The position numbers were made by a program, and so were the translations under genes. From Candidatus Zhuqueibacterota bacterium (lineage in GTDB: Bacteria > BS750m-G25): a DNA stretch of 34,881 bases. Location: assembly GCA_016783505.1 (NCBI GenBank), contig JADHWK010000021.1, positions 1 through 34,881 of the forward strand, read 5' to 3'. This document shows positions 1,580 to 32,021 of the stretch, piece after piece (positions within the stretch are counted from its first letter, which is position 1; each line of letters begins with the position of its first letter). The notes beneath the pieces are model-generated. The model had not been told where the DNA came from. It was given only the letters and a program-made list of their open reading frames with translations, and ran no database searches.

Positions 1580-2857
1580 TTAATCTATCAGAATAGTTTT
1601 TTTTCGGTCTGAACCAAGGGATAGGATGTTGATTTTTACACCGAGGAGGTCTTCTAAAAAGGAGACATATCTCCGGGCCTGAACCGGTAGGTCGGGGAAG
1701 GCCCTAACTCCGGTGGTGTCATGACGCCATCCCTCAAAATCCACATACTGGGGATGGCAGGAATCAAGGATGTTGGGGTCACCGGGGAAATAGTCAAGGT
1801 TTTTCCCGTTGACCTGATAGGCCGTGCAGACCTTTATTGTTTCCAGTTGGTCGAGGACGTCCAGTTTGGTCAATGCCAGCCCGGTTACGCCGTTAATCAG
1901 GACGGAATGGCGTGTCAGGATCCCGTCAAACCAGCCGCAGCGCCTGGGTCGGCCCGTGGTGGCCCCGTATTCGTGGCCCATCTCCCTTAGCTTATCCCCA
2001 AGTTCATCCCGGACTTCGGTGGGAAAAGGGCCGTTTCCCACCCGGGTGGTGTAGGCTTTGACAACACCGACGACCCGGTTGATACGGCTGGGGGCCAGGC
2101 CCAATCCGACGCAGGCTCCCCCCGAAGTGGGATTGGAGGAGGTAACGTAGGGATAGGTGCCCATATCAACGTCCAGCAGGGTGCCCTGGGCACCCTCAAG
2201 TAGTATTTCCTCGCCTTCCTCTATGGCCTTATTTAACAGAATCGTAGTGTCGGCAAGGTAGGGCTTAAGTTTACGGGCATACTCAACATAGGATAACAGG
2301 ACCTCCTCCTCTTCCAGACCCGGGATCCCGTAAATGCGATCCAGGAGGAGATTTTTCTCCCGGATATTCCTAACTAGTTTATCCTCGAAAAGTTTGATAT
2401 TATCAAAATCCCCGATCCGAATACCCCGGCGGCTGATCTTATCCTCGTAGGCGGGGCCGATCCCCCTGCCGGTGGTGCCGATACACCCGGAACCATCCCC
2501 CCGCTCGCGGGCGGCGTCCAGCAGCTTGTGATGGGGGAGGACGAGATGGGCCCGGTCGCTGATCCAGAGCCTTCCCTCGGGGCTTATACGCCTCTTTTGG
2601 AGAAGATCAATCTCAGCCAAAAGCTCCTCCGGATCAACCACCACCCCGTGACCGATGAGGCATGTTACACAGGGATGGAGGATGCCGGTGGGGATCAGGT
2701 GCAGGATGATCTCTTCACCGTTAACCACTACCGTGTGCCCGGCGTTGGCCCCCCCTTGGTAGCGAGCCACGACATCAACGTTATCACTTAAGAAATCAAC
2801 GATCTTTCCCTTCCCCTCATCCCCCCACTGAAGACCGACAACGACGGTGACGGACAT
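1580..2857 (-). CDS. purA: adenylosuccinate synthetase
   Basis: It catalyses IMP + Asp + GTP to adenylosuccinate, the first committed step of AMP synthesis, in the cytoplasm. The 425-residue length is normal for the family. The N-terminal P-loop GDEGKGK (residues 12-18) carries catalytic Asp13, and NAGHT holds catalytic His41. GCIGTTGRGIGPAYEDK contributes to IMP binding. ATTGRPRRCGW and ALTKLDVLD are the substrate-loop and guanine-specificity motifs. The start MSVTVVVGLQWGDEG matches the usual N-terminus. There is no Shine-Dalgarno sequence; the leader is A/T-rich (ATTAAAATAACAAAAACTTC), as in many Bacteroidetes-like genomes. It is separated from secF by more than 300 bases of repeats and secF's terminator, so it is probably transcribed on its own. 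Confidence 0.98.
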   Translation of the reverse strand: MSVTVVVGLQWGDEGKGKIVDFLSDNVDVVARYQGGANAGHTVVVNGEEIILHLIPTGILHPCVTCLIGHGVVVDPEELLAEIDLLQKRRISPEGRLWISDRAHLVLPHHKLLDAARERGDGSGCIGTTGRGIGPAYEDKISRRGIRIGDFDNIKLFEDKLVRNIREKNLLLDRIYGIPGLEEEEVLLSYVEYARKLKPYLADTTILLNKAIEEGEEILLEGAQGTLLDVDMGTYPYVTSSNPTSGGACVGLGLAPSRINRVVGVVKAYTTRVGNGPFPTEVRDELGDKLREMGHEYGATTGRPRRCGWFDGILTRHSVLINGVTGLALTKLDVLDQLETIKVCTAYQVNGKNLDYFPGDPNILDSCHPQYVDFEGWRHDTTGVRAFPDLPVQARRYVSFLEDLLGVKINILSLGSDRKKTILID

Positions 2858-2939
2858 AATTTGAAGTTTTTGTTATTTTAATGAAATTGAAAGGCGGACA
2901 ACCAAAATCCAAACCTTGTTCTTTTTTTTATCATTCTAA

Positions 2940-3054
2940 ATGTAGCCGCAGGTCACGCCATAGGCGGATCTGCCTCAGGCACGACTTCATGCCTGCGGTC
3001 GGTTAGGTGCTCGACCGAACGGTAATTCCGCACCCATAAAGGGTGCGGCTACAT
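2940..3054. repeat. long-range inverted repeat element with nested hairpins
   Basis: ATGTAGCCGCA at 2940-2950 is the exact reverse complement of TGCGGCTACAT at 3044-3054. Inside lie a second pairing (CCGCAGG 2946-2952 with CCTGCGG 2992-2998) and a perfect hairpin, CCGCACCC-ATAAA-GGGTGCGG at 3028-3048. The centre contains a GTCGG...CGACCGA motif shared with other gaps in this window. The layout is that of a REP/BIME-like or MITE-like intergenic element able to fold as RNA or cruciform DNA. No coding potential is seen. Confidence 0.7.
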
Positions 3055-3105
3055 CTATTAAATTCTCATCTTCTCAACAAACACAGTTATAGTGTAATAG
3101 ACAAC

Positions 3106-3135
3106 AAAAAGCTCCGGCAGTTCTTACCGGAGCTT
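3106..3135 (-). terminator. rho-independent terminator downstream of secF
   Basis: On the minus strand, AAGCTCCGG (3135-3127) pairs perfectly with CCGGAGCTT (3117-3109) around a 9-base loop, and a run of five T follows (3110-3106, partly within the stem). It lies 27 bases beyond the secF stop codon in the reading direction of secF, so it very likely ends the secF transcript and separates it from purA. Confidence 0.85.
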
Positions 3136-3161
3136 ATCCTACCCCCTGTTTTGGATAGGAC

Positions 3162-4220
3162 TTAGGGTCTTCTCCCTTTTGCCTCGGCCCTTCGCTGCCA
3201 TTCCACCAGAATGGGGCTGGCCACAAAGATGGAAGAATATGTGCCCACTACCACCCCGATAAGCAGGGCGAGGGCGAAGTTGTGGATGACCTCACCCCCG
3301 AAGAGGAACAATATTACTACCACCATTAAGGTGGTCAATGAAGTAATGATCGTTCGACTTAAGGATTGATTGATGCTGGCGTTGATAATGACCTCATAGG
3401 GGTCTTTTCGCATTGCCTTTACGTTCTCCCGAATGCGGTCGAACACCACAATGGTATCGTTCAATGAATACCCCACGATGGTCAGGAAGGCGGCCACGAT
3501 GGCCAGGGAGATTTCCAGATTAAGCAGGGAGAAGATGCCCAGGGTGATGAGCACGTCGTGGAAGAGAGCGGTGATGGCGGCCAGGGAATATCTGAGGTTG
3601 AAACGGATGGAAAAGAAAACTACCAGAATAATGGAGACTACAATCAGATAGCCGATCCCGATGGTATTCCGAATAAAGGGCCAGAAGGAAAGCGCCAGGA
3701 TGATGAACAAAAGAATAATCAGTGTGATGATCCCGACAAGGGATTCCTTTTCAAACCTAAGTGAGATGTAGATGGAGATCAGGATAATGGCCCCCAGAAA
3801 GGCCAAAAGGGCGTTTCCCCGCAGCTCGCTGCCGATCTTGGGTCCCACCTTTTCGGACCTTAGCACCTGAAAGGGGTTGTCGGGAAAGGCATCTTTTAGT
3901 GTTTGTTGAATATCCTCGCGGGTTTCCATACCCCTTTCTGTTTCTTCAGCCCGGACGAGAAATTCCCCCCCGGAGCCGAACTCCTGTATTTCACTCCTCC
4001 CCAATCCGATTTTTGTCAGGGCCTCCCGAATCTGACCGACGGTCACCGGCTTATCAAACTGGATTTGCAGGAGGGTTCCCCCCTGAAAATCTATACTGTA
4101 ATTAGGACCATTATGTAAGATCAGGGAGACCAGTCCGATCAGGATCAGGGTGCCGGAGACTAAGAAGGCAAAGGTCCGTTTTCCCTGAAAGTCAATGTGG
4201 GGTTCTTTAAAAAAGCGCAT
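3162..4220 (-). CDS. secF: protein translocase subunit SecF, enlarged
   Basis: It is an RND-type inner-membrane accessory of SecYEG that uses the proton-motive force to help preprotein translocation. It has an N-terminal membrane helix (16-36), a periplasmic P1 domain starting with the conserved YSIDFQGGT (41-49), the VGPKIGSELR junction (125-134) and the signature IVGYSLNDTIVVFDRIREN (248-266). At 352 residues it is longer than the usual roughly 300. Between the helix ending ISLRFE (152-157) and the usual helix with ALFHDVLITLG (218-228) lie about 50 extra residues containing two more hydrophobic segments (about 161-180 and 188-207), giving eight predicted helices instead of six. secD lies 308 bases upstream on the same strand. 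A strong terminator follows. Confidence 0.96.
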   Translation of the reverse strand: MRFFKEPHIDFQGKRTFAFLVSGTLILIGLVSLILHNGPNYSIDFQGGTLLQIQFDKPVTVGQIREALTKIGLGRSEIQEFGSGGEFLVRAEETERGMETREDIQQTLKDAFPDNPFQVLRSEKVGPKIGSELRGNALLAFLGAIILISIYISLRFEKESLVGIITLIILLFIILALSFWPFIRNTIGIGYLIVVSIILVVFFSIRFNLRYSLAAITALFHDVLITLGIFSLLNLEISLAIVAAFLTIVGYSLNDTIVVFDRIRENVKAMRKDPYEVIINASINQSLSRTIITSLTTLMVVVILFLFGGEVIHNFALALLIGVVVGTYSSIFVASPILVEWQRRAEAKGRRP

Positions 4221-4528
4221 AATTTAGTTATTAGGTTATTAAGTCATTAAAAAATAATTAATTTTTGCCATTTAGATTAAAATCATGTCATTAGAAGAAT
4301 AGGGATATAACAATTAACTGGAGCGGGAGTTTAACAATCGGTCAGGTCAGTCTTGTCAGTTAGGCGCCCGACCGATGTGAATTTGCAATTCTAGCCCACG
4401 ATCTTACGATCCAACAACCTAACAGCTTAATTACTTAATGACTTAATGACCAAATGACCCGATGATCTTACCAAAACCGACCTTTTACAATTAAGAACAA
4501 CATTATTAATTTTTGGGGGACACTCAAC
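4221..4528. other. secD-secF intergenic stretch with AT-rich direct repeats
   Basis: No gene is seen. The secF-proximal end is AT-rich with reiterated TTATTAGG/TTATTAAG words (about 4225-4260). The secD-proximal end has repeated CTTAATGA/AATGACC words (about 4428-4460). In the middle, ATCGGTC (4337-4343) pairs with GACCGAT (4370-4376), and AGGCGCCCGACCGAT matches a motif found in other gaps of this window. secD and secF are usually adjacent or fused, so a spacer this long is noteworthy; it may hold a separate secF promoter. Confidence 0.5.
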
Positions 4529-6454
4529 TTAGATACTGAGCGTCTTGACCTCCATCCGGTCGGTCATGTAATCAAAGATCACCCGGGTGACTACCAGGGC
4601 GGTGAACATTGAGGCGATGATCCCGATCATCAGGGTGAGGGCAAACCCCTTGATGGGGCCGGTGCCGAACTGGTAGAGGACGATGCCGGCGATAAAGGTG
4701 GTCACGTTGGCGTCCAGGATGGTTCTGAAGGCCCTCGAGTAACCGTTGGCGATGGAAGCACGGATGGTCTTACCCGTACGTAGCTCCTCCCGGATACGCT
4801 CAAAGATGAGGACGTTAGCATCCACCGCTATACCGATGGTAAGGATGATGCCGGCAATTCCGGGCAGGGTCAGGGTGGCGTGGAAGCCGGCCAGGACAGC
4901 AAAGATGAAAAGGATGTTTAAAAACAGGGCCAGGTCGGCGATTAGTCCGGCTATCTTATAGTAAAAGAACATAAAGCACACCACCAGGACGAGGCCGATG
5001 ACGGCCGCGTTTTTGCCCATCCGGATGGAATCGCGTCCCAGCGAGGGTCCCACGGTTCTTTCCTCGACTATGTTTACCGGAGCCGGCAAAGCCCCGGCCC
5101 GGAGGACGATGGTCAGGTCCCTAGCTTCGTTCATGGACTCGGACCCCTCAATAATGGAGCGGCCGTCGGGGATCTTTACCTTGATGACCGGGGCCATGTA
5201 GACCTTGTTGTCCAGAATGATGGCCAGCCGTTCCCCAATGTTGGCGCCGGTTACCCGGGAGAAGATGCGGGCCCCCTTGCGGTTCATATTAAGGGCTACG
5301 ATAGGCCGCCCGGCGGTTTTGGGATCGTAACCGGAACCGATCTCCACCCGGGCCTCGGCCACAGCAGAGCCGGTTAGCTCGGGTTTGGGATTAACGACGT
5401 ATAATGTATAGTAAAGATTGCCATCCCCGAGGAGATCAGTCTTACTGGACCACAGGAATTCAGCCTCCCTCTCATAAAGTTTTCGGATATCTTCTCGTTC
5501 TATGATAGCCCGTAGGGCAGCGGCGTTCTTTTCGGGTACCTTGATGTCGTTTTGAAAACCCCGGACCAGGGCGGAGAAGGGCCGATCCTCAAAGATGCGC
5601 TCGTCCACCACCAGGGTAGCGTCTTCCCCTTTTTCGAGGGGGATCTTCGGGGTCTCCCCAAAAAGTTCCTCCACTGAGATTTCCTTGTCCTGGCTTTCCA
5701 CCGCTGGCTCCTGTTCGGCTTCCTGGGCTTTTGCGGTGTCGGGGGCTTCTTTTTCTTTAAGGGTTTCCACCGCTTCCGGGATGCCCTCTTCTCCACGCAG
5801 GACGTCGTCTATGGAGGAGATGAGATTTTGCGTATACTGGGCGGGTTTTAAAAGTTTAAACTCTAACAAGGCTGTTTTTCCGATTAGCGACTTGGCCCGG
5901 TCGGGGTCGGTTATCCCGGGGAGTTCGATGATCAACCGCCGACTTCCCTGCCTCTGGAGCAGGGGTTCGGATACCCCGAACTGGTCCACCCGGTTTCGGA
6001 GGATCTCAAGGGTGCGGTTGATAGCATCCTTGGCCTCCTTGTCAATCCAGTCCAGGATTTCTCCCTCGGTATCGCCACCCTCGTCAAAGTAACGGACCAG
6101 GTTGACCCCCGCATCCCTAAAGGTGCGGTTTAAAATAGAGAAGAAGTCCTCATCTGAGGTCGCCATCTCCCCTTCAATCTGCTCTTTCAGCCCGGAGAAT
6201 TTTTCATCCTTGTTCTTGACCAGGTTGTCAATCAGTTGGACCAGGTCAACCTCAAGCACTAAGTGCATCCCACCCTGAAGGTCCAGCCCCTGTTTGATGG
6301 TTTTGGCCTTAAGCTCCATCAACTCCGCCTGATCAAGCTCAGCCAGTTCATCCTCGCTCAGGGTGCTGTAGCGGTAGGCGGGATAGAGGAAATATAAAGA
6401 GAGGATGATGAATAGGGAAATCAGTATAATCCGAAAGGTGTAATTTCGCTTCAT
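4529..6454 (-). CDS. secD: protein translocase subunit SecD
   Basis: It is the RND-type partner of SecF in the SecDF complex, with one N-terminal helix (about 8-26), a large periplasmic P1 domain and five C-terminal helices (about 465-630). Recognisable motifs are LDLQGGMHLVLEVD (57-70), LRNRVDQFGVSEP, LIIELPG, the lead-in to the membrane domain (LRAGALPAPV, ERTVGPSLG), AVDANVLIFERIREE and the final FALTLMIGI. At 641 residues it is somewhat long. Residues about 221-280 are a Glu/Pro/Ala-rich low-complexity stretch inserted in the periplasmic domain. The gene starts MKRNYTFRI with no clear ribosome-binding site and precedes secF on the same strand. Confidence 0.97.
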   Translation of the reverse strand: MKRNYTFRIILISLFIILSLYFLYPAYRYSTLSEDELAELDQAELMELKAKTIKQGLDLQGGMHLVLEVDLVQLIDNLVKNKDEKFSGLKEQIEGEMATSDEDFFSILNRTFRDAGVNLVRYFDEGGDTEGEILDWIDKEAKDAINRTLEILRNRVDQFGVSEPLLQRQGSRRLIIELPGITDPDRAKSLIGKTALLEFKLLKPAQYTQNLISSIDDVLRGEEGIPEAVETLKEKEAPDTAKAQEAEQEPAVESQDKEISVEELFGETPKIPLEKGEDATLVVDERIFEDRPFSALVRGFQNDIKVPEKNAAALRAIIEREDIRKLYEREAEFLWSSKTDLLGDGNLYYTLYVVNPKPELTGSAVAEARVEIGSGYDPKTAGRPIVALNMNRKGARIFSRVTGANIGERLAIILDNKVYMAPVIKVKIPDGRSIIEGSESMNEARDLTIVLRAGALPAPVNIVEERTVGPSLGRDSIRMGKNAAVIGLVLVVCFMFFYYKIAGLIADLALFLNILFIFAVLAGFHATLTLPGIAGIILTIGIAVDANVLIFERIREELRTGKTIRASIANGYSRAFRTILDANVTTFIAGIVLYQFGTGPIKGFALTLMIGIIASMFTALVVTRVIFDYMTDRMEVKTLSI

Positions 6455-8171: not shown

Positions 8172-8698
8172 TTACAAGTCCCCCATATTAAGGGGGGATT
8201 TAGGGGGGTGTTAAAACCTATTAAACGTTATTAAGACGTTATCCCTACTTTCCTCCCTCTCAATCCAATCCCTAATAAATGCCATTACACCTTCCATGTT
8301 GTTTTTTATATCAGAAACATAAAACCCTAAAAATTTTATACCTTGTTTTTCGATTTCCCTCTGTCGTATCTTATCCCCTTTGAATTTATTTTCATGACTG
8401 ATGCTATCAATTTCAATCGCCAAACGAAGTCTGCTGCAATAGAAATCTACAATGTAATTCCCAATAGGCTTTTGCCGGGTGAATTTATAGACTTTTACCT
8501 GTCTTCCTTTGATTTGCATCCAAATTAGAACTTCAGACAAGGTGCCTTCCCTACGCAATCTTCTTGAAAGTGCTTTCAGTTTTGGATTGTAATAAGTTTT
8601 CTTTAGCATGTCTTAAACACCCCCCTTTCATTCCCCCCTTCTTAGGGGGGATGACCACTTCACCCATCGCCATCCATGAACAGGAAATCTTACAAGTC
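8172..8698. mobile_element. inverted-repeat-flanked DUF559 cassette (putative)
   Basis: The DUF559 gene sits tightly between two G/C-run inverted repeats. The reverse complement of 8178-8212 starts AACACCCCCCTAAATCCCCC. The plus strand at 8616-8651 starts AACACCCCCCTTTCATTCCC, and both continue into a GGGGGGA run. Outside them the 9 bases TTACAAGTC occur as a direct repeat at 8172-8180 and 8690-8698, consistent with a target duplication. The stop codon overlaps the left repeat and the start codon is 7 bases from the right one. No transposase is present, so any mobilisation would be in trans. This is an inference from structure only. Confidence 0.5.
8211..8609 (-). CDS. DUF559 family endonuclease-like protein
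   Basis: This 132-residue protein matches the DUF559 / very-short-patch-repair-like endonuclease fold. Conserved features are TLSEVLIW (Glu26), the QKPIGNYIVDFYC motif (Gln46, Gly50, Asp55) and LAIEIDSISHE (Glu66, Asp68, His72). They are followed by basic helix residues and the strand IKFLGF. Asp55 and Glu66 would be metal ligands of a PD-(D/E)XK-type site; Ser69 replaces the usual Gly after EID. Biological roles of this family are not well established. It is AT-rich relative to the adjacent citF and is bracketed by inverted repeats, so recent arrival is plausible. It probably does not belong functionally with the neighbouring genes. Confidence 0.88.
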   Translation of the reverse strand: MLKKTYYNPKLKALSRRLRREGTLSEVLIWMQIKGRQVKVYKFTRQKPIGNYIVDFYCSRLRLAIEIDSISHENKFKGDKIRQREIEKQGIKFLGFYVSDIKNNMEGVMAFIRDWIEREESRDNVLITFNRF

Positions 8699-8778: not shown

Positions 8779-10329
8779 TTAAAAATCTTCATGTAATTCT
8801 TTAACAACATCAATGACGGTTCCATCACGGAATTCTATCAGAGCGACGATGCGATCGCCGAAGGTAGGTTTGGCCGGGGTGCCCGTCATGTCATGGGCTA
8901 TTTTTTTAAGCTTTTCGATGGGCATGATGGGCAGGGTGCTCCCTTTGAGCCTATCCAGCAGGTCCTCACGGCGGGGGTTAATGGCGATGCCCCTTTCGGT
9001 GACGATAACATCTATCATCTCCCCGGGGGCGGTCACCGTGGTCACCTCGTCCACGACAATGGGCAGCCGGCCCCGAATCAGGGGAACCGTGATCATGGTA
9101 AGCTGGGCGTCGGCGGCGTCGGTGAAGCCCCCGATGCCGTGCAGGAGCCAGCCGTCGGAGTGGGTGTTTACGTTGACGTTAAAATCAAGATCAATCTCCG
9201 TTCCCCCGAGGACGGACACTTTCACTAGGGAAGCAAAGCACCCCTTAGTATGGTAATTATAGGACACGAATGGATTGGTCTCAATGTGGAAGGGGTTATC
9301 CCTTAGGGAGCGAACACCGGTCAGGTCGAAGGCCTGACCGTCGAGGATGTACTTCACCCGCCCCTCGTTCAACAGGTTAACTAACACCTCGGTTGATCCC
9401 CCCCGGGCGAATGCGGCGGTGACTCCCTTCCGCCCCATGATCTCGGCTAAGTATTTGATGAAGGCCAACGATACCCCCCCGGCTCCGGCCTGGAACGAGA
9501 AATCCGGTTCATCAAGAAGCCCCGAGTCTTCCACGAATCGGGCGGCGTACTGGGCGATCAGAAGCCGGGTGGGGCTGCGGGTGATGCGAGTGGTCCCCGA
9601 GACAATCTGGGCCGGGTCGCCCAGAGAGTCAATCTCGACCACATAATCAATGTTTCCCCCTTCGATGCTCCAGGGGAAGCAGGGGAAGGGGACTAAGTGG
9701 TCGGTGACCACCACCACCCTATCGGCATATAAAGAGTCTGCCAGGGCGAACCCTAATGGACCGCAGGCCGAAGGGCCGTTTACTCCGTTGGCATTCCCGT
9801 GGCGATCGGAACAGGGGGCGGCGATAAAGGCCACATCAATGGGAAGGTCCCCGTCCTGGATGGCCCGGTAGCGACCTCCATGGGAGCGCAAAATGGCCGT
9901 TCCCCTCATCTTTCCCAATGAGCAGGCTTTTCCCACCGGTCCGTTCATGGAACCCTCGATATGGTGGATCACACCGCTTTCGATATGCCGGACCAAGGGT
10001 TCGTGGCAGGGGAACAGGGCCGATGGGGCCGGGACCAGATCCTTCAGCCCCCGCTGGGCCAGCTTGTCCATCACCAGATTGACCAGCCGATCCCCGTTCC
10101 GCAGGTGATGATGAAACGAAATGGTCATACCGTCCTTGATGTCACAGGCATTGATGGCCTCGTCCAGAGAGGTTAACAGCTTGTCCTGGTATTGGCTGGC
10201 GGCCCGAATCGGAGGGCCGATCTTTCTTCCACCGCCCTCATCGGAGTTTGCTCCACCAAAGGGCTTCAGCTTCCTGCCGTCAATCTCCTCGGGGATCAAC
10301 CTGCCGACGGCGTTTTCGATTATTTTCAT
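8779..10329 (-). CDS. citF: citrate lyase alpha subunit (acetyl-ACP:citrate ACP-transferase)
   Basis: This 516-residue CitF belongs to the CoA-transferase superfamily. In citrate lyase the alpha subunit swaps acetyl for citryl on the acyl carrier protein, and CitE then cleaves citryl-ACP to oxaloacetate. Typical stretches are GMTISFHHHLRNGD, SGVIHHIEGSMNGPVG, ILRSHGGR, AFIAAPCSDRHGNANG, FQAGAGGVSLAF, GGSTEVLVNLL and VTERGIAINPRRED. The length is normal. It lies downstream of the CitD-CitE fusion on the same strand, but 368 bases separate them and paired palindromes lie in that gap, so it may have its own regulated promoter. No citC, citX or citG maturation genes are in the window. Confidence 0.96.
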   Translation of the reverse strand: MKIIENAVGRLIPEEIDGRKLKPFGGANSDEGGGRKIGPPIRAASQYQDKLLTSLDEAINACDIKDGMTISFHHHLRNGDRLVNLVMDKLAQRGLKDLVPAPSALFPCHEPLVRHIESGVIHHIEGSMNGPVGKACSLGKMRGTAILRSHGGRYRAIQDGDLPIDVAFIAAPCSDRHGNANGVNGPSACGPLGFALADSLYADRVVVVTDHLVPFPCFPWSIEGGNIDYVVEIDSLGDPAQIVSGTTRITRSPTRLLIAQYAARFVEDSGLLDEPDFSFQAGAGGVSLAFIKYLAEIMGRKGVTAAFARGGSTEVLVNLLNEGRVKYILDGQAFDLTGVRSLRDNPFHIETNPFVSYNYHTKGCFASLVKVSVLGGTEIDLDFNVNVNTHSDGWLLHGIGGFTDAADAQLTMITVPLIRGRLPIVVDEVTTVTAPGEMIDVIVTERGIAINPRREDLLDRLKGSTLPIMPIEKLKKIAHDMTGTPAKPTFGDRIVALIEFRDGTVIDVVKELHEDF

Positions 10330-10398
10330 AGCTCTGTTATCTCTTTAATTTTTGTAAATGTAAAAGGTGCGTTTAATCTTTAATCATTTACTCCTCAT

Positions 10399-10462
10399 GG
10401 AATACGAGTAAAACATAATTTACTAACATTGGAATGTGAGTAAAATATATTTTACTAACAAT
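10399..10462 (-). promoter_or_regulatory. tandem operator-like palindromes upstream of citF
   Basis: Two 32-base direct repeats lie head to tail (10399-10430 and 10431-10462). Each contains an 18-base palindrome: AGTAAAACATAATTTACT at 10407-10424 (6-bp perfect arms) and AGTAAAATATATTTTACT at 10439-10456 (perfectly symmetric). Their centres are exactly 32 bp apart, about three helical turns, as expected for cooperative dimers on one DNA face. They lie roughly 78-127 bases upstream of the citF start. The cognate regulator is not identifiable from the window. Confidence 0.65.
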
Positions 10463-10625
10463 CCAAGAAAACCCTCATTCAAGAAAAAAGACGGGCACTA
10501 GCCGTCTATATGAGACAACTTCTTAAAAATTGGTCAGACGCCTGACTGATTTACACTTTGCATTTTACATTTTGCAATTTGAAGCTTCGCCAAATTTATG
10601 TTGTTTCCCCTCTCGTCGGGTTGCT

Positions 10626-10672
10626 TGCCCGGTCCGCCGTGCCCGGCTAGGGTAGGAGGCTACGCTCCCAGG
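10626..10672. repeat. dispersed intergenic repeat, copy 2 (in citDE-citF gap)
   Basis: TGCCCGGTCC (10626-10635) and TAGGAGGCTACGCTCCCAGG (10653-10672) match, in reverse orientation, the copy at 7109-7139. The flank also holds GAAGCTTCGC twice (about 10581 and 10679), the second inside the palindrome GCGAAGCTTCGC. The rest of the 368-base citDE-citF gap holds the operator pair at 10399-10462 and a GGTCAGACGCCTGACTGAT palindrome (10532-10550). No gene is seen in it. Confidence 0.7.
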
Positions 10673-10697
10673 GGGGCGAAGCTTCGCTAGATGAATT

Positions 10698-11885
10698 CTA
10701 TTCTGATTCTAACAATCCCATTCTTTTTGCCAATTCCAGTGTCCTTCGGGCCCGGGCAGCCACCGGGGCATCTATCATCTTCCGGCCCAACGAGGCGACT
10801 CCAGATCCCTTTTCTTCCGCTTCCCTTAAGGCGGCCAATACCTTCTGGGCGTGCTCAATTTGCTTCGGGGTGGGAGCAAAAGCCCGGTGAACCGGCTCAA
10901 TCTGACCGGGGTGGATCAAGCCCTTGCCGTCGAAGCCCAGGGAGATGGCCTCTTTAGTGCTGGCGATCAGGCCCTCGGTGTCGGCCACATCCGAGAAAAC
11001 GGTGTCAATGGCCTGGACGCCGGCGGCCCGGGCAGCCAACACCAATTGACAGCGGGCCAGGTAGCTTTCCCGGCCCTCCTTGGTCCGGTCGGTCCCGATG
11101 TCGGCGGTGAAGTCCTCAGCCCCGAAGCAGATGGCCACCACCCTGGGGCTGGCGGAGGCGATCTCAAAGGCGAGCAGTACCCCCTTAGCCGACTCAATGA
11201 TGGGCATCAAGAAGGTCTCCTTTTTCTGATCGAACCTCTTCTCAATACTGGCGATCCGTTCTTCAACAGCCTGTACATCTTCCTTTCCCTCGCACTTGGG
11301 GATGAGGATGGTGTCCGGTCCGGCGGGGATGATCTGCTCTAAATCATCGGCCCCAAACGGGGTCCTAAACGAATTAATCCTCACCATACGCTCGGAGCTT
11401 CCGAAATCCACCGCCCGGAGGGAGTTACGAACTAAAATCCGGGCGTCGGGCTTGTCGGCTGGGGCCACCGAGTCCTCCAGGTCCAGGATGATGGCGTCAG
11501 CACCGAACAGCCCGGCATTCAGCATCAGGTCGGGGTTGTTGCCGGGGATGTAGAGCCTTGATCTCCTTAACCGATCCCTGGTCACTTGAGGCTGGGGCCC
11601 CTTTGCCGGGGGCAGAACCCCGGGACCCTCGATGGGTAAAAGCTCGCGGGCGGCGTCCTCGACCCGGGCCATAATGACGTGGTCCAAGGCCCCCCGATCA
11701 TTCGCCTTTACGTGTACATGTTGGATACCCAGTTTTTGAAGGGTGTTCTGAATGGTCGCCTTTATTTGTTCCCCAAACAGTGTCTGCACAGAGCTGGTCA
11801 GGTCAATCCCAATAACTCCGGTCTCCCGTTTTTCCAGTTCGATGAGAATATCGCCCTTTTCGGCCCGTCCGGATGTTACCGTCAT
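10698..11885 (-). CDS. citE: citrate lyase acyl-carrier (CitD) / beta subunit (CitE) fusion
   Basis: Residues 1-85 match the CitD acyl carrier: SSVQTLFGEQIKATIQ and NDRGALDHVIMARVE align with the family. Residues 106-395 are CitE, the HpcH/HpaI-type citryl-ACP lyase: RSRLYIPGN, DAIILDLEDSV, ILIPKCEG, CFGAEDFTADIG and GFDGKGLIHPGQI. A Pro-rich linker (86-105) joins them. CitD normally carries its phosphoribosyl-dephospho-CoA group on a Ser in GTLES(S/G)D. Here the aligned motif is GRAEKGD, with Lys10 and Gly11 at the two candidate positions, so no attachment Ser is present. Either the domain is structural and the reaction uses free acyl-CoA, or the lyase acts on another substrate. The start ATG is followed at once by the CitD motif. 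It lies upstream of citF. Confidence 0.92.
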   Translation of the reverse strand: MTVTSGRAEKGDILIELEKRETGVIGIDLTSSVQTLFGEQIKATIQNTLQKLGIQHVHVKANDRGALDHVIMARVEDAARELLPIEGPGVLPPAKGPQPQVTRDRLRRSRLYIPGNNPDLMLNAGLFGADAIILDLEDSVAPADKPDARILVRNSLRAVDFGSSERMVRINSFRTPFGADDLEQIIPAGPDTILIPKCEGKEDVQAVEERIASIEKRFDQKKETFLMPIIESAKGVLLAFEIASASPRVVAICFGAEDFTADIGTDRTKEGRESYLARCQLVLAARAAGVQAIDTVFSDVADTEGLIASTKEAISLGFDGKGLIHPGQIEPVHRAFAPTPKQIEHAQKVLAALREAEEKGSGVASLGRKMIDAPVAARARRTLELAKRMGLLESE

Positions 11886-12387
11886 GATTCACACCTTTAA
11901 TTTTTTATTGCTCTTCCTGGATTAGCGTGTATAAGCATAGGTGATACGCTGTTACATAATTAGGATAAATCCCAAATTCCAAACAATATCAAATGACCAA
12001 AATTCCAATTAGTCGGGCGACCGATTGCGAAGCTCGTCTCGTTATTCGGAGGACGGTTGCCGTCAATGTTACACAAACCTTATTCACACGACTGACCTGT
12101 TAATCCCGAAGATTCGGGATAACCGAAAACCGCACCACGATGCGAGCCCTGTTAAATGCTCCTAACCTGTTTAACAGGGCGAGTAGCGTAACCGTGGGAC
12201 GTTTTATGCAACCTAACTAATTTTTTGTTGTAGTCAATTCTTAAAAATTCCAAGACGTTTAGTTACTGTTTAACCAACAGAAATCCGATCATTTGGGGTG
12301 GAGGAAAGCGAAGAATCAAAGGGTACCCTCCATCTTCTCTGCTCCCCTGCTCCCCAGCCCCTCTGCTAACATTAATACTAAGATACC
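11886..12387. other. 502-base gene-free stretch rich in inverted repeats
   Basis: No gene is seen. It contains ATCCCGAAGATTCGGGAT at 12103-12120 (perfect 8-bp arms), preceded by CCTGTTA as in the copy at 930. It also has a perfect 11-bp hairpin, GCCCTGTTAAA with TTTAACAGGGC around 13 bases (12146-12180), and AGTCGGGCGACCGAT at 12011-12025, related to motifs at 3000 and 4362. Near 12338-12366 is a low-complexity CTGCTCCCCTGCTCCCC stretch. The region separates pyrE from citDE and probably ends the pyr transcript, though no classical terminator with a T-run was found. Confidence 0.5.
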
Positions 12388-19872: not shown

Positions 19873-19901
19873 TTGACTTTTTTGTTTTTTTTTATTATAA
19901 T
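19873..19901 (+). promoter_or_regulatory. sigma-70-type promoter of the sugar operon
   Basis: TTGACT (19873-19878) and TATAAT (19896-19901) are separated by exactly 17 bases, nearly all T. It lies 98 bases before the start codon of the LacI-family gene and is the best promoter match in the window. A dyad operator follows within five bases. Confidence 0.85.
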
Positions 19902-19905
19902 ATGG

Positions 19906-19919
19906 TCGAATCGGTTCGA
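19906..19919 (+). promoter_or_regulatory. LacI-type operator overlapping the transcription start
   Basis: TCGAATCGGTTCGA is a dyad with a central CG step and matching arms in 12 of 14 positions, the form typical for LacI/GalR-family regulators. It starts four bases after the -10 element, so bound protein would block initiation. The first gene of the operon encodes a LacI-family protein, so autoregulation and operon repression are the simplest reading. A second weaker dyad, TTTCGAAA, lies at 19991-19998 next to the start codon. Confidence 0.7.
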
Positions 19920-19998
19920 TTTTATTCTTTTATACTTACCCATAGATCGTCCCTCCAGTTACCGCAATTTCCTTTTATTTTATAAAACCGTTTCGAAA

Positions 19999-21045
19999 AT
20001 GACGGTAACGATCAAGGATGTTGCCCGCCGAGCCGGGGTCGCTCAATCCACTGTCTCTTTGGTTTTAAACCAAAAAGAAAACATTCATGAGCAGACCCGT
20101 CTTAAGATCCTTAAAGCGATAAAAGAGCTCAACTACCATCCCCGCAGGTCCGCCCGCGGACTGGCTACCCGCAAGAGCAACAATATCGGTTTTATCCTTA
20201 ATACCCAATTCTTTACCCAGACCGAACCCTTCTACACCAAGGTTTTTTTGGGGGCCAGTTTTGAAGCAATCAAGCACGGTTATTATGTTCTGCTGGCCTC
20301 GGTGGACGATAATTTCGATCCCAAAAAGTCCCTTCCCAATTTTCTGTTAGAACGGCATGTGGATGGGGTTGTTCTGGCGGGGCGAGTACCCGATAGCATC
20401 ATAACCTACATTCGGCAACAGGATATTCCCATCGTACTGGTTGACTATCGAGTGGATCATTTTGCCACCCATGCCGTCCTGATTGACAACCTTAATGGGG
20501 CCTACGAAGCCGTCTCCCACCTCATCAATCAGGGACATCGAAGAATCGCCTTTGTGGGTGGATCTTGCCACCACCCCAGCATCCAGGAAAGATATGATGG
20601 ATATAAGAAGGCCATAGGGGTTTTGGGATCACATAATGAACTGAACGATAAGTTGGTAGACCTGCGAGAGGAGGAAAGTTCCCCCCAGATCGGCTTTGAT
20701 TCCACCAAAAAACTTTTGAGCCTGAAACCGAGACCAACGGCCTTCTTTACGGTGAACGATGCGGTCGCCATCGGGTGTATCAAGGCTTTAAGACAGTCCA
20801 GCCTTCGGGTCCCCGAGGATGTGGCCGTGATCGGATTTGACGACGTGGAATGGGGCTTGCACATGGACCCCCCCCTATCCACCGTGCGGGTGTTTAAAGA
20901 GGAACTGGGTGCAACGGCAGCCAGGAAGATCATCCACATCATCCAGAATAAGACTACCGTTATCGAAAAGACGATCATTGGGACCGAGTTGGTAATACGA
21001 GAATCCTGCGGTGGAATGAGAACCAAAGACAAATATGAATTTTAA
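19999..21045 (+). CDS. LacI-family transcriptional regulator
   Basis: It is a DNA-binding repressor that responds to a sugar ligand. I take the ATG at 19999, because TIKDVARRAGVAQSTVSLVLN (the helix-turn-helix, residues 4-24) then sits at the N-terminus as usual; this gives 348 residues. An upstream TTG frame would start inside the promoter. The hinge is about 47-60 (RSARGLATRKSNNIGF). A periplasmic-binding-protein-like core follows, with DGVVLAGR, IVLVDYRVD, VSHLINQGHRRIAFVGG, PTAFFTVNDAVAIG and VIGFDD. It is first in the operon, under a matching operator, and its end overlaps the glycosidase gene by 11 bases. The ligand is unknown but is presumably a product of the cluster. Confidence 0.95.
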   Translation: MTVTIKDVARRAGVAQSTVSLVLNQKENIHEQTRLKILKAIKELNYHPRRSARGLATRKSNNIGFILNTQFFTQTEPFYTKVFLGASFEAIKHGYYVLLASVDDNFDPKKSLPNFLLERHVDGVVLAGRVPDSIITYIRQQDIPIVLVDYRVDHFATHAVLIDNLNGAYEAVSHLINQGHRRIAFVGGSCHHPSIQERYDGYKKAIGVLGSHNELNDKLVDLREEESSPQIGFDSTKKLLSLKPRPTAFFTVNDAVAIGCIKALRQSSLRVPEDVAVIGFDDVEWGLHMDPPLSTVRVFKEELGATAARKIIHIIQNKTTVIEKTIIGTELVIRESCGGMRTKDKYEF

Positions 21046-23005
21046 GAACACCTGTTTCCAGGATAAAGAAGGGAATCCCCTTTTCTTAATCGGCATCAAC
21101 TATTGGCCCAGGAAAACCGGCCCCCTCATGTGGTCCCGATGGAATCCGGGGGAAATTCGGGCTGAGCTAAAGCAGATGAAATCGCTGGGGATAAACGTCT
21201 GCCGCTTCTTCCTTTTCTTCCCTGAGTTTATGCCGTCACCGGACAAAATAAACCCTCAAATGGTAGCGAGGTTAAGACAATTCCTGTCAATCTGTGATGA
21301 TGAAGGGCTTTATACCCTCCCCACTTTTTTTGTGGGACACATGTCAGGTGAGGACTGGGACGTGCCCTGGCGGGATGGCCGAAATTTTTACAGTGATCCC
21401 TGGATGGTGGAGAGGGAAGTGGCTTTTGTCCAAGAAATAGCCGGGCAATGTAAAAACGAAAAAAGTGTAGTGGGCTGGATTTTATCCAATGAGATCCCCA
21501 ATTACGGGGGCTATGGTAATGACGGTGAGATTACCCCCTGGGCGAAAACACTGATTCAAGCCATTCGAGAGGTTGATCCCGGTCATCCCATTTCCATCGG
21601 GGACGGTTGCTGGAGCCCGGAGGTCTATGGGGAGGCTACCCGTTTCTATCTCAGGGAGCTAAAAGAGGTTGAGGACTTTTTCGGGCCTCATTTTTATCCG
21701 GAGGAGGAGGATGAACTACGGCATGCTTACTATCCCTCCTTTGTCATCAAGATGTGTCAAAGCTGGGGTCGGCCGGTGCTTCTGGAAGAATTTGGCACCT
21801 CCAATACCATGGCCTCGGAGGAAAATCAGGGGGGCTATTTCCGTTCCATTTTGAGTAGCGGTTTTTTAGCCGGAGCCGTGGGGGCCTTAGGATGGTGCTA
21901 TTCCGATTACAATTTAACCCGCCAGCGTCCCTACACCCACCATCCCCACGAGCTTCGATTCGGGGTAACCCGCAGTAACGGATCGGTGAAACCGGCAGGA
22001 CAAGAGTTGGTCCGGTTCCGTAGGATTATGGACGTTTTAAATGATGAAGACTGGACTCTCTGGGAAGACCCAGTGGGGTTGCTTATTCCCAGTTATTATT
22101 ATTATGAATATCCTTATTCCAATGACAACAAGCCGTTGATGTTTCGTATCTTTTTGCACACCTACACCCTGATGAAAAAAGCCCACCTGAACGGGTGTTG
22201 TTTCCCAGAACCGCCCCTTAACGACCAGGATATAGAAAGCCCTCCCCCGGCGGCCATTCCTGAAGATATTAGGCTGCTGGTTTCGCCTTATACCCAGAAA
22301 CTAACCGTTCCCTTCTGGGAAGAGATTTTGAGATATGTGGAAAGGGGAGGGGTGTTTTACTCCTCCCATGCCCCCGATGGATGGGTTCATGTGTTTGAAG
22401 AACTCTATGGGGCGAGGCACCATCTGCGTCCCGGTCTGGTGGATTTACCCGGGGAGAAGATAAGGCTGGTGTTTGTCAAAAACTTCGGTCAGCTAAAAAA
22501 GGGGGATGAGCTGGTATACCATTTTACCCCCGGTAAAAGGGAAGGGGCTTTCTGTCCCCTAGAGCCAACTACCGCGGAAGTTTTGGCCGTTGATTCCGAA
22601 GACCGGCCAGCAATCATATCAAACAAAATTGGAAAAGGCAAGGTCTTTTTTTCCGCCTTCCCCATAGAATACTATCTTTCCCAGATTCCGGACCAATCCC
22701 AAGATGATAACAGCCATCGCTTTTATGATTCATTGGCCTCATTAGCGGGCGTTAAGGCCCTTTTTTCTTTATCAAACCCCTTAATTGAACTGGGGACTTT
22801 ACATTCCTTTAGCAATGGAGATTATATTCTTTATCTGATCAACCAGGGATGGAGGGAAGAAAGGACGGAAATTCATTGCAGGCGTCAAATTTCTTTCGCC
22901 AAGGATATAGAAACCGATCAGGTAATTCCAGCTCAGAACTCTGAATTAGAACTTACCCTTCCCCCCAAGGGGGTAAAGGTTCTTCGGATAACTCCGACCC
23001 AATGA
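21035..23005 (+). CDS. clan GH-A glycoside hydrolase (GH5-like) with amidotransferase-like domain
   Basis: This 656-residue protein has no signal peptide, so it is probably cytoplasmic. Residues 1-350 form a TIM-barrel of the cellulase/mannanase type: FLIGINYWPR at the start, acid/base Glu153 in ILSNEIPNY, and nucleophile Glu252 in VLLEEFGTSN. Residues about 360-560 (VGLLIPSYYYY, RLLVSPYTQKLTVPFWEEIL, YVERGGVFYSS) resemble the amidotransferase-like trimerisation domain of GH42 enzymes, and a small beta domain follows (about 590-656). The presence of GH130 downstream makes a beta-mannoside or related oligosaccharide a reasonable substrate, but this is inference. It overlaps the regulator gene upstream by 11 bases and the dehydrogenase downstream by 4 (ATGA). 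Confidence 0.85.
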   Translation: MNFKNTCFQDKEGNPLFLIGINYWPRKTGPLMWSRWNPGEIRAELKQMKSLGINVCRFFLFFPEFMPSPDKINPQMVARLRQFLSICDDEGLYTLPTFFVGHMSGEDWDVPWRDGRNFYSDPWMVEREVAFVQEIAGQCKNEKSVVGWILSNEIPNYGGYGNDGEITPWAKTLIQAIREVDPGHPISIGDGCWSPEVYGEATRFYLRELKEVEDFFGPHFYPEEEDELRHAYYPSFVIKMCQSWGRPVLLEEFGTSNTMASEENQGGYFRSILSSGFLAGAVGALGWCYSDYNLTRQRPYTHHPHELRFGVTRSNGSVKPAGQELVRFRRIMDVLNDEDWTLWEDPVGLLIPSYYYYEYPYSNDNKPLMFRIFLHTYTLMKKAHLNGCCFPEPPLNDQDIESPPPAAIPEDIRLLVSPYTQKLTVPFWEEILRYVERGGVFYSSHAPDGWVHVFEELYGARHHLRPGLVDLPGEKIRLVFVKNFGQLKKGDELVYHFTPGKREGAFCPLEPTTAEVLAVDSEDRPAIISNKIGKGKVFFSAFPIEYYLSQIPDQSQDDNSHRFYDSLASLAGVKALFSLSNPLIELGTLHSFSNGDYILYLINQGWREERTEIHCRRQISFAKDIETDQVIPAQNSELELTLPPKGVKVLRITPTQ

Positions 23006-24012
23006 AATGCATTGTCCTTTATGCACCCCACCAATTAGGGGTCGAGGAAAGAAAAATAGCCCAAGCCGGTCCGGATGAGGTTTTAGTCAGGGTCAAAGCC
23101 TGCGGGGTGTGTGGAACCGACATCCATATTTTCGAAGGAACGGCACCAGCCAACCCGCCGGTGGTCTTGGGCCATGAATTTGTGGGCGTAATCGAGGATG
23201 TCGGTTCCGGCGTCCGTTCTTTGAAAAAAGGGGATCGGATAGCCGTTGATCCCAACCTTAGCTGCGGCGGTTGTTATTACTGCCGCCGGGGATTAGGACA
23301 TTTATGTCAAAACCTGAAGGCCCTGGGGGTGACCATGGATGGGGGGTTCTCCGAATATTGTCTCGTTCCCCAATCCCAGGCCTACCGGCTTCAACCTGAT
23401 CTTAATTTAGAATGGGGATGCTTTTTAGAACCCCTATCCTGCGCCGTCCACGGGATTGATCTGGTTAATCTGCAGGTCGGTGACAGCGTGGTCATCCTGG
23501 GGTTAGGCCCCATTGGACTAATGATGGTGCAATTGGCGAGACTTAAAGGAGCGACTAGAATCATTGTGGTGGAACCCGTTGGGGGACGGCGGAAACTGGC
23601 TGAAAGGTTAGGATGCGACAGGGTGATTGATCCCGGGGATGGGGACCCCGTATCGGTGGTGATGGAAAACACCGTTGAAGGGGCTGATGTCGTTCTGGAG
23701 TGCTCGGGAACCCCCCAGGCGGCCGGACTTTCCCTAAGGTTGGCACGGCGGGGGGGGACGGTGCTGTTCTTCGGGGTATGCGACATAGATGCCACCATAC
23801 CCTTAAAACCTCAACAGATTTATTTTAAAGAACTGACAGTGTTGGGTTCCTACATTAATCCCCATACCTTTTCCCGGGCGCTGGACCTGCTGGAGGCGGG
23901 AAAAGTCAGGGTTGATTCCTTTTCCATCGAGAAATTTCCCCTGGAAAGGGTACTGGATGCCTTTGAATTTCATCGGTCGGGAAAGGTACCGAAAACACTG
24001 GTCATACCTTAA
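23002..24012 (+). CDS. zinc-dependent medium-chain dehydrogenase (sorbitol/threonine dehydrogenase type)
   Basis: This 336-residue cytoplasmic oxidoreductase oxidises a polyol or secondary alcohol with NAD(P). Catalytic zinc ligands are Cys37 (GVCGTD), His58 and Glu59 (GHE). The structural zinc site is Cys88, Cys91, Cys94 and Cys102. The Rossmann motif GLGPIG is near 167-172, and VVEP at the end of the second strand, with its acidic residue, favours NAD. Cys141-Phe-Leu-Glu-Pro is the usual mid-barrel motif. Next to a PfkB kinase it suggests polyol to ketose to ketose phosphate. The start overlaps the glycosidase stop (ATGA). The exact substrate (mannitol, sorbitol or another polyol) cannot be read from sequence. 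Confidence 0.9.
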   Translation: MKCIVLYAPHQLGVEERKIAQAGPDEVLVRVKACGVCGTDIHIFEGTAPANPPVVLGHEFVGVIEDVGSGVRSLKKGDRIAVDPNLSCGGCYYCRRGLGHLCQNLKALGVTMDGGFSEYCLVPQSQAYRLQPDLNLEWGCFLEPLSCAVHGIDLVNLQVGDSVVILGLGPIGLMMVQLARLKGATRIIVVEPVGGRRKLAERLGCDRVIDPGDGDPVSVVMENTVEGADVVLECSGTPQAAGLSLRLARRGGTVLFFGVCDIDATIPLKPQQIYFKELTVLGSYINPHTFSRALDLLEAGKVRVDSFSIEKFPLERVLDAFEFHRSGKVPKTLVIP

Positions 24013-24036
24013 TGGGGTAAAAAATCTAGGCCAAAA

Positions 24037-25014
24037 ATGGTGAACAGGCCCCGGGTCATCTGTCTGGGCGAAGCCCTGATTGACTTTGTCTCGGCAAAGA
24101 GTGGAGTCAGTTTAGGTGATGCCGATCAATTTATCAGAGCACCCGGGGGAGCACCGGCCAACGTTGCCGTGGGACTTTCCCGGCTGGGGGTACCCACCGC
24201 CTTTATAGGTAAAGTGGGGGACGACCCCTTCGGCAGGTTTTTGAAAAAGACCCTGAAAGAGAACGGGGTGGATGTTTCCAACCTTCTATTTGACAAAACC
24301 CACAAAACCCGCCTGGCGTTTGTCTCCCTGACACCAGATGCGGGAAGGGATTTTGAATTCTTTGGGGATCCCGCTGCCGATTCCCAATTGAGGGAAGAGG
24401 AAATAAATTCTGGTCTTTTCGAAAAACTCAAGCTCTTTCACTTTGGCTCCATCTCGCTAATCTCAGAACCCAGTCGTGGGGCCACCTTTTCTGCCGTATC
24501 AAAAACCCAACAGTCCGGGGGAATGGTTTCCTTTGACCCCAACCTGAGGCTAGCGTTATGGAATGATGGGACTCAGGCTCAAGCCTGGATTATTAAAGGG
24601 ATAAGGTGTGCGGATGTGGTTAAAGTTAGCGGGGATGAATTGGATTTTATCGCTGGCGGCGAAGACCTTAATGAAGGCTGTCAAGAAATCCTTGGGTATG
24701 GGGCCAAGTTAGTCATAGTCAGCCTGGGGGCGGAGGGGTGTTATTTTCAGACCCCAAAATGCCGAGGATCGGTGGAAGGATTCCCGGTAAATGCGGTGGA
24801 TACGACCGGGGCCGGGGATGGATTTGTGGCCGGGCTTTTAGCCATGATTGCCCATGCCGATCAGCCCATTGAGGAAATGTCTAAGAAATGCTTGTGGAAC
24901 ATCTGTCGGTTTGCCAATGCTGTCGGGGCTTTAACCACCACCAAACCGGGAGCCATTCCGGCGCTGCCCGCCAAAGACGAAGTGACGGAATTCCTGACCG
25001 GAAAAATAGAATGA
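24037..25014 (+). CDS. PfkB-family sugar kinase (fructokinase-like)
   Basis: This 325-residue ribokinase-fold kinase phosphorylates a sugar with ATP. Signature 1 is GGAPANVAVGLSRLG (37-51, substrate binding). Signature 2 is DTTGAGDGFVAGLL (255-268) with catalytic base Asp261 and the anion hole GAGD. CLGEALIDFV at the start and FDPNLRLALW (166-175) are typical of bacterial fructokinases, so fructose is the most likely substrate; ketodeoxygluconate or other ketoses remain possible. It lies 24 bases after the dehydrogenase and is followed by 150 bases without a convincing gene before the secreted protein. Confidence 0.92.
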   Translation: MVNRPRVICLGEALIDFVSAKSGVSLGDADQFIRAPGGAPANVAVGLSRLGVPTAFIGKVGDDPFGRFLKKTLKENGVDVSNLLFDKTHKTRLAFVSLTPDAGRDFEFFGDPAADSQLREEEINSGLFEKLKLFHFGSISLISEPSRGATFSAVSKTQQSGGMVSFDPNLRLALWNDGTQAQAWIIKGIRCADVVKVSGDELDFIAGGEDLNEGCQEILGYGAKLVIVSLGAEGCYFQTPKCRGSVEGFPVNAVDTTGAGDGFVAGLLAMIAHADQPIEEMSKKCLWNICRFANAVGALTTTKPGAIPALPAKDEVTEFLTGKIE

Positions 25015-25164
25015 AGACGGCTATGCAAACTATAACAAAAAGGAGGAATTTAAAGGGGCTATTTTCAAAAGATCATCAGGTTTTCAGCAACTGCGTTAGG
25101 AATGTTTCGGGCAATTTTTACGTTAATCCCACATACAATCCAAAAGTAAAGGGGGGGTAATATA

Positions 25165-27966: not shown

Positions 27967-29276
27967 TGACCCACACAACAAAGATATCAGGATCATTCAT
28001 ACTGGTTTTGTTTATAATTGTCCAGATCTTCTTGGGCTGCGGCGCCAAAAAGTCCCAGGAAGATGGGGTGGTCAGGCTTACCTATTGGTGCTCCTCCAAC
28101 CAGTTCGAGATCGAGCTGGCCCAGACGGTAGTTCGGGAATGGAACAGCGCCCATCCCGGGGTTCAGGTAGCCTTCCAGCCCATCCCTGCCGGCCAGTCCA
28201 GCGAGGAGGTGCTGCTGGCCGCCATTGTGGGGAAGACCACCCCGGACCTGTGCTCTAACATCTGGCCGGGCAGCGTGGCCCAGTATGTGGAGGCGGGGGT
28301 GGTGGTGGCCGTGGACACCATGCCCGGATTCCATGAGGCGGTGGAATTAAGGACCCCGGAAAGTCTGGTAAAGGCCTATCGCTCCCGGGACGGACACCAG
28401 TACCAGATCCCCTGGAAGACCAATCCCATCATGATTGAATGCAACCTGGGCCTGTTCCGGGAGGCCGGGGTGGAGTCGCTGCCTAAGACCTACAGCGAAT
28501 TCTATGAGGCGGCTGAGAAATTGGTCCGGGATCGGGACGGGGACGGCTACGCCGACCAGTGGGCCGCCTACCGGGATGTTAAGGTAGACTGGTGGCAACG
28601 CTTCTTTGACTTTTACACCTTCTATGCCGCCGCTACTGATGGAAAGGCCCTTCTGGATGGGAACAGGGTAGCTTTCAATAATGCCGAAGCAGTGGAAGTT
28701 TTTCGGTTCTGGTCCGAAGGATACCGGAAGGGCTATCTGCCCAACGCCCGTTTTGAGGGGGACGCTTTCTTGCTGGAAAAGTACGCCATGCACATCACCG
28801 GACCCTGGAACATCGCCCATACGGAGAAATTCAAGCCGGAGGGATTCGAATACGACTTCATCCCCATCCCGGTGCCCGATGGCCATAAAGGCCCGGTTTA
28901 CACCTATGGAGACCAAAAAAACATCGTCATCTTCAGCACCACCCGACACCCTGGGCAGGCCTGGGAGTTTGCCCGATTCTTAATCTCCAAAGAGAACGAC
29001 CTTAAGTTGCTGGAGTTATGCGGTCAATTGCCCCAGCGGGTCAGCCTGCTAAAAGATTCCACCTTTGCCGACTATTTTGAACGTAACCCGATGATGAGGA
29101 AGTTCGCCGCCCAGGTGCCCTATACGGTAGCGGTGGACAATTCGCCCTACATCCAGGAGGTCTTCGACGCTATCTCCCAGGAATATGACGCCGCCTGCAT
29201 CATGGGGGTAAAGACCCCCGAGCAGGGCATCGCCGATGCCGCCAAACGGTCCCGAACGATTTTGTCCCGGGGATAA
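27966..29276 (+). CDS. ABC transporter sugar-binding lipoprotein (family 1)
   Basis: I place the start at the ATG at 27966, which overlaps the preceding stop by one base (TAATG). A longer frame exists but would add an N-terminus out of context. The 436-residue product has a lipoprotein signal ending FLGC (Cys25). The mature part shows features of family 1 solute-binding proteins: VRLTYWCSSNQFEIELAQTVVREWN, PDLCSNIWPGSVAQYVEAG, IPWKTNPIMIECNLGLFREAG, FLLEKYAMHITGPWNI and PGQAWEFARFLIS. DRDGDGYADQW resembles a calcium-binding loop, as in maltose/trehalose-type proteins. It feeds the two permeases downstream. The ligand is likely an oligosaccharide released outside the cell. Confidence 0.94.
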   Translation: MTHTTKISGSFILVLFIIVQIFLGCGAKKSQEDGVVRLTYWCSSNQFEIELAQTVVREWNSAHPGVQVAFQPIPAGQSSEEVLLAAIVGKTTPDLCSNIWPGSVAQYVEAGVVVAVDTMPGFHEAVELRTPESLVKAYRSRDGHQYQIPWKTNPIMIECNLGLFREAGVESLPKTYSEFYEAAEKLVRDRDGDGYADQWAAYRDVKVDWWQRFFDFYTFYAAATDGKALLDGNRVAFNNAEAVEVFRFWSEGYRKGYLPNARFEGDAFLLEKYAMHITGPWNIAHTEKFKPEGFEYDFIPIPVPDGHKGPVYTYGDQKNIVIFSTTRHPGQAWEFARFLISKENDLKLLELCGQLPQRVSLLKDSTFADYFERNPMMRKFAAQVPYTVAVDNSPYIQEVFDAISQEYDAACIMGVKTPEQGIADAAKRSRTILSRG

Positions 29277-29307
29277 AGACCGGTCAAAGATAGCTAAAAG
29301 TTTACGC

Positions 29308-30189: not shown

Positions 30190-30202
30190 ATTCAAGATTC
30201 AA

Positions 30203-31027: not shown

Positions 31028-31055
31028 GGAAAGCAACAGTAGCCAAAACACAATA

Positions 31056-31991: not shown

Positions 31992-32021
31992 CCAATTTAG
32001 GAAAGGGGAAAAAAGAAGCCC

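Follow-up and report, generated by a model that had tools for sequence, protein, structure and literature searches.

A conserved CitD-CitE variant with a basic residue at the prosthetic-group serine position suggests a citrate lyase working with free CoA

Citrate lyase normally depends on a tethered phosphoribosyl-dephospho-CoA arm and on three helper proteins, CitC, CitX and CitG. We take the attachment serine of CitD to be the one numbered Ser14 in K. pneumoniae, two residues ahead of an Asp. As Dimroth and Eggerer reportedly described in 1975, the isolated subunits of citrate lyase act on CoA esters, as an acetyl-CoA:citrate CoA-transferase and a citryl-CoA lyase. In the sister malonate system, the carrier MdcC bears its anchor Ser25 on an exposed inter-strand loop, at its tip; in the malonate decarboxylase holoenzyme, a CoA modelled into the transferase active site has its 2'-hydroxyl about 10 Å from this serine (PMC5534430). 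Here we analysed a CitD-CitE fusion protein whose carrier domain has a lysine at the position of this serine, a variant of which we found no earlier description in the open-access literature.

The fusion gene, citDE, lies on the minus strand at 10698..11885 of the window, i.e. the whole analysed stretch of 34,881 nucleotides, and encodes 395 residues from an ATG start. Since an in-frame stop is found two codons upstream of this ATG, with one sense codon between, the protein has no longer N-terminus; a Shine-Dalgarno-like run, AAAGGTG, was seen by eye just 5' of the ATG. The CitD-like carrier domain (residues 1-87; 11625..11885, minus strand) matches the Pfam ACP family PF06857 over residues 2-81, against profile positions 3-82 of 83 with equal lengths (E 5.8e-22), and scores 69 bits against NCBIfam citD TIGR01608, above the cut-off of 63.5. 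A linker (residues 82-104; 11574..11642, minus strand) leads to the CitE domain (residues 105-390; 10716..11573, minus strand), which matches PF03328 (E 5.7e-62) and, at 330 bits, falls below the equivalog cut-off of 443 for TIGR01588, citE being still its best match and over the full length. These profile matches bear out the CitD-CitE fusion that an earlier note on this DNA had read from the open reading frame. Downstream by 368 bp, on the same strand, citF (8779..10329) encodes the 516-residue alpha subunit (transferase), above the equivalog cut-off of TIGR01584 (557.8 against 501.45 bits) and matching PF04223 (E 2.2e-151).

The motif of the window's CitD reads S5-G6-R7-A8-E9-K10-G11-D12, with Lys10 encoded by AAG at 11856..11858 on the minus strand. 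This agrees with the earlier note, which had given the motif as GRAEKGD and the two candidate serine positions as Lys10 and Gly11. In canonical CitD the aligned motif is G-[TS]-x-[EQ]-S-[SMN]-D. Only the anchor position is invariably Ser there (16/16), two residues ahead of the Asp; therefore Lys10 is the equivalent of the attachment serine, and the window's CitD has no arm-bearing serine at that place.

After duplicate removal we had 74 CitD-CitE pairs, 16 of them canonical and 58 in the clade of the window. Among these 58 distinct sequences the anchor position is Lys in 21, Arg in 33, Ser in two, and Ala and Asn in one each. Because Lys or Arg stands there in 54/58 sequences from many families and several phyla, neither chance nor a sequencing error can account for it, and the interchange of Lys and Arg points to charge and argues against a covalent anchor. 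Attachment of another cofactor to the Lys, in the manner of biotin or lipoate, was considered and is ruled out for the clade by the 33 members with Arg. The loss of the anchor serine proposed in the earlier note was thus upheld by the alignment with related CitDE proteins, while the emphasis on a motif free of serine needs refining, since near relatives often read Lys-Ser-Asp, with a Ser one residue past the anchor position.

This neighbouring serine raises the possibility that the arm is kept and attached elsewhere, for instance at that Ser, by an enzyme unrelated to CitX. It is present in most of the clade, where the motif ends in RSD in 33 sequences and in KSD in 10. However, the residue is Gly in 10 members, the window (Gly11) included, and Asn in two, and it varies in canonical CitD as well (Ser, Met or Asn). 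As judged from the alignment, the position after the anchor, sometimes Ser, is not the anchor position. The anchor serine is not simply lost but exchanged for a conserved basic residue, so that the loop that carries it may retain a job.

We next consider the cofactor genes. CitX, CitC and CitG were searched for in 44 genomes, comprising 33 with only the Lys/Arg type, 10 with only the canonical type and one (G109) with both. In whole-genome searches, CitX, CitG and true full-length CitC were each found in 0/33 of the Lys/Arg-only genomes, and the same searches recovered CitX in 9/10, CitG in 9/10 and CitC in 10/10 of the canonical ones. The genomes are joined by one protein clade, so that the p-values of a Fisher test on this tally overstate independence and the 33 absences do not count as 33 independent events. 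The window's own genome (G000) is 60% complete, which makes the absence there weak when taken alone, and the result rests on its relatives; as 21/33 genomes are at least 90% complete, genome incompleteness is not the cause of the missing genes. CitC-family matches in G000, G086 and G012 were rejected as CitC, being CoaD (TIGR01510, 191-210 bits), and other short matches to the family among the 33 genomes were weak and partial. G109 provides a natural control, since it carries a fused Arg-type copy together with canonical copies, and here the cofactor genes are present, CitC and CitG sharing a contig with one of the canonical copies.

The set of CitX, CitG and CitC by which a carrier-dependent citrate lyase (EC 4.1.3.6) is recognised in a genome was therefore found neither in the window's own genome nor in the 32 others of the same type, as the earlier note had predicted for the source genome, and the canonical controls were positive. 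The absence of both the CitX and the CitG family from every Lys/Arg-only genome also speaks against an arm attached elsewhere, which we regard as very unlikely.

As for the spread of the variant, a scan of named genomes gave six relatives, from Calditrichota, KSB1, Krumholzibacteriota, Zixibacteria and one unclassified bacterium. Whole-genome searches widened this set: in the phylum to which G327 belongs, 35/82 genomes contain a match to the query, in nearly every case a CitDE fusion. No relatives were found in viral contigs. The fusion is common but not required, as CitD and CitE are separate neighbouring genes in three loci (L006, L007 and L019, the motif region being the same in the last two). 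In L006, L007 and L060 the two were seen unfused although the CitD is of the Lys type, with the motif KGD.

CitE-like enzymes lacking CitD were used to root the CitE tree, in which the Lys/Arg-type sequences make up a single clade (support 96/89). The two Ser, the Ala and the Asn sequences fall within its Arg branch, and the CitF tree gives the same split into two groups with a single change. We do not take the Ser at the anchor of L013 and L024 as the original state: both are nested in the Arg branch, in genomes lacking CitX, CitG and true CitC, and we treated them as later drift. As to whether Ser or Lys/Arg came first in citrate lyase, the rooted tree only puts the Ser sequences on one side, at a support of 77/62. 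Ser is likewise the anchor of the sister carrier MdcC (PMC5534430), which makes it the likelier ancestral residue and its loss the simpler reading. On this evidence from alignments and trees, the window's protein is an ordinary representative of a conserved variant, which belongs to the whole clade and is not a quirk of a single genome.

Turning to the catalytic subunits, the active-site residues of CitE are kept in all clade members of the alignment, namely the Arg of VRIN, the Mg-binding Glu and Asp and the lid Asp of MIDAP, their roles in binding magnesium and substrate and in the lid being assigned by analogy with the CitE superfamily (PMC3832036). Two further CitE residues are exclusive to the clade: Arg110 (58/58; Met, Leu or Cys in canonical sequences) and Gly322 (58/58; Ala or Ser in canonical sequences). 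CitF has more than 20 clade-specific positions, including Ser252 (52/52) and Arg255 (50/52). It also has a Gln at the place where, by eye, the Glu that is catalytic in family I CoA-transferases presumably aligns, which agrees with a transferase that forms no covalent intermediate. Taken together, the clade-specific residues of CitE and CitF look like signs of a subfamily adapted as a whole, and not of one broken residue. Most loci have citF adjoining citDE, just downstream.

Considering the above results, we propose a citrate lyase free of the prosthetic group, in which free CoA is the carrier, CitF and CitE are active and CitD is a structural or docking piece; we put the probability of this reading at roughly three in four. 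CitF would transfer CoA from acetyl-CoA onto citrate, giving citryl-CoA and acetate, and the CitE domain of CitDE would then split citryl-CoA into acetyl-CoA and oxaloacetate, with the CitD domain placed between CitE and CitF in a structural or docking role. In sum, citrate would be converted to acetate and oxaloacetate, free acetyl-CoA being the recycled carrier. Such a mechanism would explain why CitX, CitG and CitC are gone together, since free acetyl-CoA as the carrier leaves nothing to attach or to acetylate. We counted in its favour that characterised CitE-like enzymes outside citrate lyase act on free CoA thioesters (PMC3832036) and that the decarboxylase of the sister malonate system is reported to work on free malonyl-CoA (PMC5534430). 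The earlier note had likewise proposed a CoA-dependent, carrier-independent citrate or citramalate lyase in which CitD survives only as a structural domain, and sequence and genome content, the kinds of evidence at hand, support it. Free CoA as the carrier, citrate as the acid that is cleaved, the part played by CitD and the way the reaction runs in the cell are our inferences from this evidence.

Among these points, the substrate is uncertain because the CitE part scores below the citE equivalog cut-off, and the enzyme might be a CoA-dependent lyase for another acid, such as citramalate, methylcitrate, homocitrate or similar. The canonical citCDEF set of Peptoclostridium adjoins methylaspartate-pathway genes, and hydratases next to the Arg-branch genes match the homoaconitase and isopropylmalate dehydratase families, both of which would agree with such a substrate. 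On the other hand, CitF exceeds its own equivalog cut-off, the dehydrogenases of the Arg-branch loci can fit citrate, without proving it, and none of the context genes in the window's own branch indicates another acid. Thus, we consider a different acid unlikely, and keep citrate as the preferred substrate.

The gene neighbourhoods differ between the branches. Arg-branch genes are often accompanied by one or two hydratases of the aconitase/homoaconitase family and by an HD-domain gene, and in several loci by a dehydrogenase of the isocitrate/isopropylmalate/homoisocitrate family. Such clusters were found in nine loci (L053, L054, L055, L057, L058, L064, L071, L072 and L074), with the hydratase present as a large-small fusion, split, or both, and with an HD-domain protein in most; seven of them (all except L055 and L057) provide the dehydrogenase-family and hydratase examples, for which the NCBIfam matches leave the exact substrate unfixed. 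Such operons suggest a role in that part of central metabolism which handles citrate. The simplest chain that the neighbours suggest would link oxaloacetate and an acetyl unit, citrate, isocitrate and 2-oxoglutarate, in either direction. No aconitase/dehydrogenase cluster was seen in the Lys branch, to which the window belongs. Instead, as judged by eye, secD, secF and purA follow citDE-citF in the window (1580-6454) and in L002 (7121-11901) and L004 (10863-14710), which are from other lineages. This order, conserved without an obvious metabolic link, suggests vertical inheritance of a household gene. A lack of citrate synthase was also considered as an explanation of the variant, with mixed results: the window's genome encodes the enzyme, as do many others, but it was not found in several nearly complete genomes.

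Long intergenic stretches flank citDE in the window (10330-10697 and 11886-12387), whereas citDE and citF abut in close relatives. Beside citDE we noticed a two-copy 32-nt direct repeat (10383-10446) overlapped by an inverted repeat with 19-nt arms (10429-10466); the flanks also hold another inverted repeat (12137-12189) and two 15-nt repeats containing GAAGCTTCGC, 97 nt apart. Elsewhere in the window, a small ORF with the look, by eye, of a DUF559/Vsr-like endonuclease lies between citF and its downstream neighbours (8211-8609), and an apparent carbohydrate-use cluster, again recognised by eye, spans 19873-34481 (LacI-type regulator, glycoside hydrolases, sugar ABC transporter, kinase). In two related genomes a gene of about 815 residues, sensor-like and GGDEF-like by eye, stands between citDE and citF (L059 3944-6403 and L061 5602-8037). 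In G327, citDE is directly preceded by genes for a PduT-like microcompartment shell protein and an RnfC-like protein (L050 9239-11126).

The AlphaFold2 model of the whole fusion has a mean pLDDT of 80.9, that of the isolated CitD domain 84.5; in the linker region, block means fell through 80, 69 and 57 over residues 81-110. The best PDB match of the CitD model by VIA-align is MdcC (5vit_C; Z 10.9, rmsd 1.9 Å over 81 residues). Foldseek gave a TM-score of 0.80 to MdcC by query length, and placed EF-G domains slightly ahead by E-value, with a much lower TM-score. A PDB sequence search with the CitD domain returned nothing significant, so that MdcC surfaced by fold search alone. The CitD domain is therefore predicted to still have an MdcC-like carrier fold, and Lys10 is located in the loop between strands one and two of the model. 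For the CitE part, the closest solved folds are malyl-CoA lyases and CLYBL (Z 26-28), whose use of free acyl-CoA also speaks for our main reading.

The predicted fold bears on a further possibility, that CitD is in decay and the complex has lost its function, or that CitF and CitE act only separately. The D domain does diverge relatively faster in the clade, with median identities of 34% against 56% for CitE, compared with 35% against 44% in canonical sequences, and a few members (G012, G334 and G246) have no citF nearby. Yet a full-length D domain is kept across the clade, with a confident predicted fold, the conserved basic residue and the GALD...AR motif, and we give hardly any credence to decay. 

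What the basic residue might do can be approached through malonate decarboxylase. Given the distance between the MdcC anchor serine and the 2'-hydroxyl of CoA, one can hypothesise that a basic residue at the anchor position could meet the 3'-phosphate of free CoA. Such a contact would fit the Lys/Arg interchange, which an inter-subunit salt bridge would fit equally well. In a bolder version, the former carrier would have become a docking domain for free CoA, the Lys or Arg on its exposed loop forming a salt bridge to the 3'-phosphate and so keeping CoA or acetyl-CoA at the active site of CitF, in place of the covalent tether; in the Arg branch, the arm-free lyase, an aconitase-family enzyme and an isocitrate dehydrogenase would together make up a TCA-cycle module that cleaves citrate reversibly and may run reductively. 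We offer this combined proposal tentatively, and think it possible but doubtful.

If our main reading is true, a large clade with the enzyme but without tether and helpers would show that the complex can run without them, and provides a natural test of the tether's purpose. Likewise, citC, citX and citG should not be a prerequisite for calling citrate cleavage in a genome and, if the enzyme acts in the TCA cycle, carbon-flow predictions would change for many uncultured bacteria.

Compared with the known citrate (pro-3S)-lyase CitDEF of Klebsiella, Enterococcus and others, the clade has the three modules in the same order, with CitF and CitD above their cut-offs and the catalytic residues of CitE kept; it differs in that CitD and CitE are mostly fused, the anchor is Lys or Arg, no citC, citX or citG was found, and CitE and CitF carry clade-specific residues. 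MdcC (5vit chain C) is the nearest solved fold of the CitD domain and has its Ser25 on an exposed loop tip, but it is a separate subunit with its arm on Ser, whereas the window has Lys at this site and no arm-making genes were found. Similarly, malyl-CoA lyases and CLYBL, the nearest solved folds of the CitE part, use free CoA thioesters, but they are stand-alone enzymes for malyl-CoA-type substrates, without a CitD domain or a CitF partner. Finally, the isolated subunits of citrate lyase are said to perform on CoA esters the same free-CoA chemistry that we propose; there it is a side activity outside the carrier-dependent complex, while in this clade it would be the natural mode.
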